64,000 bases of DNA from Glandiceps talaboti. Lineage: Eukaryota; Hemichordata; Enteropneusta; Spengelidae. The notes under the pieces were generated by a model. That model worked only from the letters and a program-made list of their open reading frames with translations, searched no databases and was not told the origin of the DNA. Position numbers and translations under genes: made by a program. Location of the stretch: contig NC_135554.1 in the NCBI RefSeq assembly GCF_964340395.1, forward strand, positions 17,668,092-17,732,091, given 5' to 3'. Below are positions 41,801 through 42,414 of the stretch, piece after piece. Positions within the stretch are counted from its first letter, which is position 1, and each line of letters begins with the position of its first letter.

Positions 41801-42414
41801 ATGTAATTCGATTATCTATCATTTTGAGTAAGATTTCGCACATCTCTTACCTTGTTTGTTTGTTTGTGTCTGTCTGTCTTTCTGTCTGTCTGCCTGCCTG
41901 CCTGCCTGCTTACTTACTTGTCTGTCTGTCTGCCTGCCTGCCTGTCCGTTTGTCTGTCTGTCTGTCTGTCTGTCTGTCTGTCTGTCTGTCCGTTTGTCTG
42001 TCTGTCCATTTGTCTGTCTGTCTGTCTGTCTGTCTGTCTGTCTGTCTGTCTGTCTGTCTGTCTGCCTGTCTGTCTGCCTGTCTGAAATTATAAAGATTCA
42101 TGTCTTGAAAGTTTACACATTTTAAATCTAGCCAAGATGTCACTATTACCATGTTACGAAAACTCTTTCAAATTCAAAGTAGATTGTAGTAGAAATGCAA
42201 GGATAGTAGTGACAAATTCTATTACCTGGGGTAAACTATTGACAAAATCCGCTGTTTTCTTCTCCCCTATTGTTCTCCTGTTATGTTGTGGACTATCACG
42301 GTCAGCAGGATCGGGTCCGGGATTTAGTTCCACATCTCCAGATAAGATCAACATCATCGACACCATATACACACAAATTGTTTTGATGGCGACTTCTAAC
42401 GTTCCATAAATCAT
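27519..42414 (-). CDS. TIR / tandem pseudokinase protein with N-terminal 2A sequence
   Basis: Fifteen coding exons with GT-AG borders and matching phases: 42226-42414, 41380-41560, 39574-40077, 38600-38773, 37267-37988, 36487-36637, 35262-36155, 34572-34910, 34258-34328, 33578-33709, 32871-33002, 32052-32338, 31359-31515, 30355-30482 and 27519-29808. They total 6,351 nt, giving 2,116 aa and TAA. Order: hydrophobic 2A leader (1-34), Ser/Thr-rich linker (35-123), TIR domain (about 133-270), linker (292-349), helical region (350-640), tyrosine-kinase-like domain 1 (about 760-1045), linker, kinase-like domain 2 (about 1120-1353), disordered tail (1354-2116). Both kinase domains lack catalytic residues. 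TIR domains signal in innate immunity or cleave NAD; paired pseudokinase-type domains usually regulate or scaffold. I recognise no named orthologue. Start: all three frames of the likely upstream exon close before this ATG. Every exon is open and joins in frame, which argues for a live gene. Confidence 0.82.
30355..33002 (-). CDS. Pseudokinase domain 2 exons (residues 1120-1353)
   Basis: Exons 32871-33002, 32052-32338, 31359-31515 and 30355-30482 encode a second kinase-like domain. [18 protein letters not shown] fits the helix C/strand 4 region and [19 protein letters not shown] the helix before the catalytic loop. HRD is replaced by HSC (1208-1210) with Phe at the Asn site, and DFG by RWG (1227-1229). 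The C-lobe is well kept: [20 protein letters not shown] and [12 protein letters not shown]. No glycine loop or VAIK lysine is evident upstream, so the N-lobe is reduced. It is almost certainly catalytically dead. Confidence 0.75.
30600..30870. repeat. Inverted-repeat (fold-back) element
   Basis: ATGAAATGCTAGTAC near 30668 is repeated inverted near 30848. Inner words (CTCGACAAAAA/TTTTTGTTGAGCC and CTTACAAACA/TTGTTTGTAAG) are also inverted. A similar 'gactcgacaaaaca' occurs near 20485. It lies in intron 13 (between exons 31359-31515 and 30355-30482 lies 30483-31358) of the large gene. It is probably a decayed MITE. Confidence 0.45.
31756..32026. repeat. (CAGA)n/(CATA)n microsatellite next to a splice donor
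   Basis: A compound tetranucleotide array in the intron after exon 32052-32338. On the transcript strand its CTGT units start about 25 bases after the donor GT. Confidence 0.95.
32420..32485. repeat. (AAAT)n microsatellite
   Basis: About 60 bases of AAAT units, in an intron of the large gene. Confidence 0.95.
33284..33545. repeat. (GGT/GAT/GAC)n trinucleotide array
   Basis: About 260 bases of GGT, GAT, GGC and GAC triplets just downstream of the exon 33578-33709 donor. The poly-Ser/Thr reading frames over it run into intron and are not real. Confidence 0.93.
33935..34165. repeat. (TTTAA)n pentanucleotide region
   Basis: A clean TTTAA run at about 33937-34010, with degenerate TTTAA-like sequence on both sides. 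Confidence 0.9.
34498..34566. repeat. (CAGA)n microsatellite abutting a splice donor
   Basis: On the transcript strand the donor of exon 34572-34910 reads GTAAGTCTCTGTCTG: the CTGT array begins immediately after the U1-binding bases. Confidence 0.95.
34572..36155 (-). CDS. Pseudokinase domain 1 exons (residues 641-1051)
   Basis: Exons 35262-36155 and 34572-34910 cover a protein-kinase fold of tyrosine-kinase type. A Lys (771, in NPVKIHMYG) is in the VAIK position and a Glu (798, LKQELGIL) in helix C. The catalytic loop reads [11 protein letters not shown] (876-885), keeping Asp878 and Asn883 but with Leu in place of His. The metal-binding DFG is replaced by NFR (900-902). YSAPES (949-954) and [17 protein letters not shown] show a normal tyrosine-kinase C-lobe. 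With the DFG aspartate gone it is probably a pseudokinase, although nucleotide binding may persist. Confidence 0.78.
35030..35219. repeat. (CATA)n/(CA)n microsatellite
   Basis: About 190 bases of CATA units with CA runs, 40 bases beyond the donor of exon 35262-36155. Confidence 0.95.
36332..36436. repeat. (CT)n microsatellite
   Basis: About 105 bases of CT (GA on the transcript strand), in the 330-base intron between exons 36487-36637 and 35262-36155. Confidence 0.97.
36487..37988 (-). CDS. Helical region of the large protein (residues 350-640)
   Basis: Two exons (37267-37988 and 36487-36637) encode almost continuous amphipathic helices rich in Leu, Ile, Glu, Lys and Arg (for example [19 protein letters not shown] and [20 protein letters not shown]). 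There is no motif I can name. It could be an oligomerisation, ARM-like or death-fold-like module between TIR and kinase parts. Confidence 0.6.
37047..37112. repeat. (GT)n microsatellite
   Basis: About 65 bases of GT in an intron. A short (GTGAC)n run follows at 37200-37228, next to the donor of exon 37267-37988. Confidence 0.97.
38141..38485. repeat. Perfect 146-bp palindrome flanked by (TA)n
   Basis: Arms 38271-38342 and 38345-38416 (72 bases each) are exact reverse complements around a 2-base centre (CC). (TA)n tracts lie at about 38141-38213 and 38414-38485, so the right arm runs straight into one tract. The block is in the intron after exon 38600-38773. It could extrude as a cruciform. 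It may be a real fold-back element or a cloning/assembly artefact at a TA-rich hairpin. Confidence 0.85.
39452..39483. repeat. 32-bp perfect palindrome
   Basis: CATGGATCTATTATTG reads identically on both strands across its centre at 39467/39468. The word TTGTATC flanks it on both sides in direct orientation. It lies 90 bases past the donor of the TIR exon. Confidence 0.8.
39574..40077 (-). CDS. TIR-domain exon (residues 124-291)
   Basis: The exon holds a complete TIR fold pattern. A strand [12 protein letters not shown] is followed by a helix, then [10 protein letters not shown] (box 2-like, ending in the typical R-D), a helix, [13 protein letters not shown], and an acidic helix [12 protein letters not shown]. 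Glu211 sits where NAD-cleaving TIR domains carry their catalytic glutamate. The BB-loop proline/glycine of Toll-like adaptors is not obvious (MVSRNNQ follows RDL) and no box-3 FW is seen. The domain could be enzymatic or purely an adaptor; sequence alone does not decide. Confidence 0.8.
40890..40991. mobile_element. Short MITE-like hairpin
   Basis: TTACGTTAGATCGGCGA (40906-40922) is repeated inverted at 40963-40979, with outer TCTCCCAAA/TTTGGGAGA also inverted. The total is about 100 bases, in the intron between exons 41380-41560 and 39574-40077. It has no coding capacity. Confidence 0.6.
41866..42083. repeat. (CTGT)n/(CTGC)n microsatellite
   Basis: About 215 bases of tetranucleotide repeat in the first coding intron of the large gene. 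Confidence 0.97.

Follow-up and report, generated by a model that had tools for sequence, protein, structure and literature searches.

A candidate 2A/StopGo exon in a TIR/double kinase-like gene of the hemichordate Glandiceps talaboti

Introduction

Does an immune-type gene of the hemichordate Glandiceps talaboti carry a working 2A (StopGo) ribosome-skipping sequence on one of its own exons, and which proteins would result? StopGo is seen as a mainly viral device, very rare in cellular genes, and sea urchin NLRs are the cellular example discussed in the available portion of Li et al. 2026 (PMC12846837). The literature searched yielded no description of a 2A for a hemichordate gene or a TIR-kinase gene; a survey of eukaryotic 2A sequences (Rao 2025, Cell Reports) may list the gene described here. 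The question was raised by a first-pass annotation of 64,000 nucleotides of the G. talaboti genome (NC_135554.1, positions 17,668,092 to 17,732,091; hereafter the window). Positions below are those of the window, and the features of the gene are all on the minus strand.

2A/StopGo motif

The 2A/StopGo core octapeptide DVELNPGP, which matches D(V/I)ExNPGP, is encoded at 42336-42313 (minus strand), with the predicted skip site between Gly33 and Pro34. The sequence at 42414-42313 was re-read, and the full 2A consensus first claimed for residues 21-34, after a hydrophobic leader, was found as described. NPGP, ExNPGP and DxExNPGP were each counted once across the six frames of the window, every time in this core. 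Under an order-2 Markov model of both strands and all frames, NPGP is expected 0.165 times per 64 kb and D[VI]ExNPGP 1.84e-5 times (one per 3470 Mb); for the core preceded by three LIMVF residues and [SAC]G the order-2 Markov expectation falls to 3.24e-9 per 64 kb. Among 60 windows simulated from the same kind of model, NPGP occurred 7 times and DxExNPGP never. With this expectation, no match in the simulated windows and a single match in the real one, a chance motif was rejected. Hemichordate assemblies measure 0.93 and 1.16 Gb in the two species given in the available text of PMC11175523; in a genome of ~1 Gb, ~0.3 chance occurrences of the bare core would be expected and none of the core with its class context.

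The core follows the hexapeptide MLILSG, with p12 = D, and fits the L-rich "LLLLSG" class (motifs 2/6) when compared by eye with the published motif text rather than by motif matrices. As described in the part of Li et al. 2026 (PMC12846837) available to us, motifs 2/6 end in (A/S/C)G ahead of p12 = D, motif 6 showed activity in vitro, and favoured p15 residues include L, while motifs 2/4/6 are associated with p15 = S. The window peptide thus shares with viral L-rich StopGo peptides the core, p12 = D and an L-rich hexapeptide ending in SG; it differs in having L at p15, where S is a preference only, and in lying in a spliced animal gene instead of a viral polyprotein. Provided that the exon gets translated, skipping at this site is likely, by analogy with these active peptides. 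An 11-residue stretch of the peptide, back-translated and used as an exact pattern, was scanned for in viral contigs and gave 0 stretches.

Candidate 2A exon and splice signals

From its splice acceptor, the exon that carries the motif spans 42226..42441 (216 nt, 72 codons), is open throughout and has phase 0 at both ends. From the proposed AUG it encodes a hydrophobic leader of 26 residues (42337..42414), the core (42313..42336) and, beyond Pro34, a hydrophilic tail of 29 residues (42226..42312). The acceptor is tttcatttttcttcttcag|TGT and the donor CAG|gtaata (42226). The donor joins in phase 0 to the exon 2 acceptor at 41560 (ttacag|AAT) and the frame stays open throughout; this join is a gene model built from the sequence.

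Splice sites were scored with a matrix made from the 7 other exons of the gene. The 2A exon donor ranked in the top 0.81% of 4336 GT sites on the minus strand and outranked 4 of the gene's 7 accepted donors, which, each left out in turn, ranged from the top 0.05% to the top 9.8%. Its acceptor ranked in the top 7.3% of 3707 AG sites on that strand. The codon-usage score of the whole exon (0.041) was matched by 5 of 267 open non-genic windows (1.9%), which overlap each other, and a wrong frame of the exon scored 0.052 vs 0.041 for the proposed one. The tail was coding-like (0.141) and the leader alone was not (-0.05). No 11-residue stretch of the 1051-aa protein model is more hydrophobic than one within the leader, whose value is reached in 1 of 1040 windows of that length.

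A search of the 64-kb window for a second copy of the exon found none, and hence no local duplication. Protein searches, both weak ones, found no relatives of the leader: with the first 292 aa none of 478 candidates reached E 0.001, and with residues 1-44 neither of 2 reached E 10. A sub-threshold NUP210 Ig Pfam match to residues 25-93 of the window protein (E 0.027) was set aside as chance.

Relatives and host gene model

Homologues were sought with residues 124-1006 of a 1006-aa version of the model that had an older exon 6. At least 7 proteins scored at E 0.01 or better among 7999 candidates: P0001 (Saccoglossus kowalevskii, 32% identity over 96%), P0002 (Ptychodera flava, 30% over 99%), P0003 (P. 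flava, 37% over 47%), P0004 (S. kowalevskii, 30% over 45%) and weaker matches from snail, sea star and krill. No protein near-identical to the window gene was among them. P0001-P0004 are uncharacterised hemichordate TIR/double-kinase proteins, collinear with the window gene and 26-39% identical over the aligned parts. By tblastn they lie in order along 40078-30354, so that the gene runs into a second kinase-like domain, and tblastn, alignment and fold together give the window gene the family layout of TIR, helical region and two kinase-like domains, in that order.

The partial model has eight exons and 1051 aa, with no stop, GT-AG introns and matching phases. Exon 2 (41380..41560; phase 0 in, 1 out) encodes a Ser/Thr-rich linker whose homologue is the N-terminal linker of P0002; their alignment score was reached by 0 of 3000 shuffles. 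With this homology, the first-pass claim that the 2A exon is spliced in phase 0 to host exons holds as a gene model. Exon 4 (38600..38773, GT-AG, fitting phases) is a linker, and exon 5 (37267..37988) encodes the helical domain (tblastn: P0001 29%, P0004 27%). Exon 6 had been drawn as a 16-nt exon, which was rejected in favour of 36637-36487, the relatives having a longer exon here; 36487..36637 fits in phase and matches P0002 by tblastn (33% over 55 aa). By eye, inverted-repeat stretches were also seen in introns of the gene at 40904-40980 and 38276-38416.

Exon 3 (39574..40077) is supported as a TIR domain by tblastn (P0001, P0002 and P0004) and by its predicted fold. Pfam TIR_2 matched the window protein at E 0.066 and P0002 at E 2.7e-4, in both cases short of Pfam's cut-off, and 1 of 5 relatives scanned had such a match. 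An AlphaFold model of the exon had a pLDDT of 66.8 and a pTM of 0.64 with a four-sequence alignment and a pLDDT of 34.7 without one. The ten best Foldseek rows were, by title, all TIR domains of TLRs and adaptors (best E 3.3e-4; query-normalised TM-score 0.41-0.47). A PDB sequence search with the exon returned one match, unrelated (E 0.87), and in a PDB search with alignment A2 the best 60 of 1388 matches were all kinases and none a TIR.

The first kinase-like domain is divided between exon 7 (35262..36155; Pkinase E 8.8e-14, tblastn), its N-terminal part, and exon 8 (34572..34910; PK_Tyr_Ser-Thr E 4.4e-15, 49-61% identity to P0001-P0004), its C-terminal part. LRD stands for HRD and NFR for DFG, both in common with P0001-P0003, and the beta-3 Lys is present in the window protein; P0004 also has LRD, keeps Asp at the DFG position and is without the beta-3 Lys. 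The second kinase-like domain (30354..32311) consists of at least three pieces (32311-32051, 31514-31353 and 30500-30354) that are 53-69% identical to hemichordate relatives (tblastn with P0001, P0002 and P0003), and HSC replaces HRD. The domain order from tblastn, the TIR fold and the lost catalytic motifs agree with the earlier description of the host protein as a TIR-pseudokinase, the pseudokinase label being a fair reading of the motifs. NACHT and LRR domains were absent from Pfam scans of the window exons and of P0001-P0005. A 785-aa ORF at 27522..29876 is probably the C-terminal tail exon of this gene, judged by a DD..YY..GT..Q stretch common with P0001 and noticed by eye; it had no Pfam match and was not recovered by tblastn at E 0.01.

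NPGP was found in 0 of the 7 retrieved relatives. P0001 and P0003 are annotated without an N-terminal part, and of the four hemichordate proteins P0002 and P0004 alone reach past the TIR domain. Since the ends of these two carry no 2A, the 2A exon has likely been gained by an older gene; the relatives, as annotated, start without one, and annotated starts may err.

Translation start

The acceptor of the 2A exon lies 27 nt before the proposed AUG (42414), and the exon is open back to it. The context of this AUG (CAC|ATGA) is weak; further in-frame AUGs lie at 42366, 42357 and 42354. Just upstream, at 42424, lies an AUG in another frame; its ORF of 40 codons (42424-42302, minus strand) overlaps the 2A. 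Were this AUG used, ribosomes would reach the 2A frame only by leaky scanning.

A possible further coding exon upstream (MVADSIQPTSDNTQH; 43631..43675) combines a strong start context (ACAATGG) with a phase-0 donor (CAT|gtaggt), which could be spliced either to the 2A exon or straight to exon 2. The donor is mediocre (top 7.7% of GT sites), and the encoded peptide has no significant likeness to the N-termini of the relatives (40% and 46% of 4000 shuffles scored at least as high). P0004 starts with MSW and P0002 has MSW 33 residues past its annotated start, in each case with the linker and TIR next and no 2A; an ATG-Ser-Trp run was sought on the minus strand between 41 and 50 kb and none was found. 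An N-terminal position of the 2A, with a start at 42414, is plausible, but the exon is open to its own acceptor and a coding exon may lie upstream. Upstream of the 2A exon there is also a MITE-like element (43311-43537) with perfect 38-bp inverted repeats and tcaagg at both flanks, which looks recent.

Interpretation

Most likely the locus holds a StopGo site that works, in an immune-type gene of an animal; sea urchin NLRs already provide examples of this kind, and the protein here is a different one. In the form that we favour, and consider reasonably probable, a coding exon of a hemichordate-type TIR/double kinase-like gene carries a functional 2A of the L-rich class, which would give a main product from Pro34 and a minor unskipped form. 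The motif, its frame, the splice signals, the homology of the gene and the TIR fold are the observations on which this is built. From them we infer that the mRNA contains the exon, where translation starts, that skipping takes place and where the products go. The nascent 2A peptide in the exit tunnel would keep the Gly33-Pro34 bond from forming; the leader would be released and the ribosome would continue, so that the main product would be a cytosolic TIR-kinase-like protein with Pro34 first. The minor unskipped form would retain the hydrophobic leader and might, with less certainty than attaches to the skipping, enter the ER.

Three other accounts of the exon were weighed. It may be an optional internal cassette in transcripts that begin upstream, for instance at 43675-43631, with a leader that is not a classical N-terminal signal sequence; inclusion of the 72 codons would then place the StopGo site ~58 residues in, and omission would leave the protein uninterrupted. 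We give this some credence, short of thinking it probable. The exon's 216 nt, open from the acceptor and in phase 0-0, suit it, as do an exon 2 able to take phase 0 directly, the starts of P0002 and P0004 without 2A and the strong start context of the candidate upstream exon. However, by chance alone one length in three is divisible by 3, an open run of 9 extra codons may be equally fortuitous, and the upstream candidate offers a mediocre donor (top 7.7%) and a peptide not significantly like the relatives' N-termini.

Rather unlikely, in our view, is the capture by splicing of a ready-made 2A brought in by a non-LTR retrotransposon or by viral insertion, with little or no host function. Non-LTR retrotransposons, in sea urchin as in other animals, are known to contain 2As (PMC4981915, in the part available), the exon is seemingly absent in relatives, and the recent-looking MITE in the upstream intron indicates that the region takes insertions. 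The first-pass annotation had taken phase-0 splicing to argue against a retrotransposon origin, which was too strong, as an exonised fragment would look identical. What speaks against capture is that the window holds one copy of the exon, that neither the 2A nor the frame is broken, that the stretch past Pro34 has the codon usage of the gene, and that 10 of 33 nearby ORFs, when scanned, gave no Pfam match and so no reverse transcriptase or endonuclease. An embedded retrotransposon with an intact reverse transcriptase was rejected on that scan, which a short or degraded remnant would escape. Least credible, and in our judgement improbable, is an unused exon, an open stretch that resembles one by chance: the retrieved relatives are without it, its start codon is weak and its acceptor is moderate by the gene's own matrix, but the full class motif would arise by chance 3e-9 times per window and the phase-0 donor points directly to exon 2.

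The favoured reading, a functional 2A on a coding exon, has its closest counterpart in Strongylocentrotus purpuratus. In the available portion of Roulston et al. 2016 (PMC4981915), 14 of 87 NLR entries have a 26-aa N-terminal 2A, 12 of the 14 are predicted signal sequences, the one tested gave ~80% skipping, and blocking of skipping led to Golgi localisation. By this analogy the window leader would skip efficiently. Both leaders place a D(V/I)ExNPGP core right after a short hydrophobic leader, on innate-immunity-type proteins of the same wider group, the ambulacrarians. Cargo and leader length differ: the sea urchin cargo is NACHT-LRR, whereas the window gene encodes TIR and two kinase-like domains, and the entire sea urchin 2A-like sequence is 26 aa, whereas 26 residues precede the core here. 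Activity and targeting were measured there; the window leader is known from sequence, with a proposed start site. Another comparison is with APE-type non-LTR retrotransposons, in which Odon and colleagues are said to have found 2A sequences in 2013. These too are 2As in animal genomes, whereas the window 2A is, in the gene model, spliced to host exons, and the scan of 10 of 33 nearby ORFs detected neither reverse transcriptase nor endonuclease.

More tentatively, and with real doubt, the locus may represent a second ambulacrarian immunity family that recruited a StopGo leader on its own phase 0-0 exon, with splicing and skipping acting in series. If so, omission of the exon would give one uninterrupted cytosolic protein; inclusion with the bond skipped would give a Pro-initiated cytosolic protein and a free hydrophobic peptide; and inclusion with the bond made would give a membrane- or ER-directed form. 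Since whether the bond is skipped depends on the elongating ribosome's state, the product ratio could report translational stress, e.g. virus infection. A 2A leader on an immune-type architecture of an unrelated kind would point to N-terminal recoding as recurrent in ambulacrarian immunity and not the oddity of one family, and the separate symmetric exon makes the reading directly testable.

Other features of the window

Rfam and tRNA scans were empty. A minus-strand ORF (12646-13071) had a sub-threshold CD225/interferon-induced transmembrane protein match (E 0.0031; 18.0 bits vs a cut-off of 27.1). A satellite array (169-bp unit, 38.3 copies, 96% matches) occupies 49862-56349, and low-complexity DNA of the TATAC/TATAG type extends from 59120 to the end of the window.
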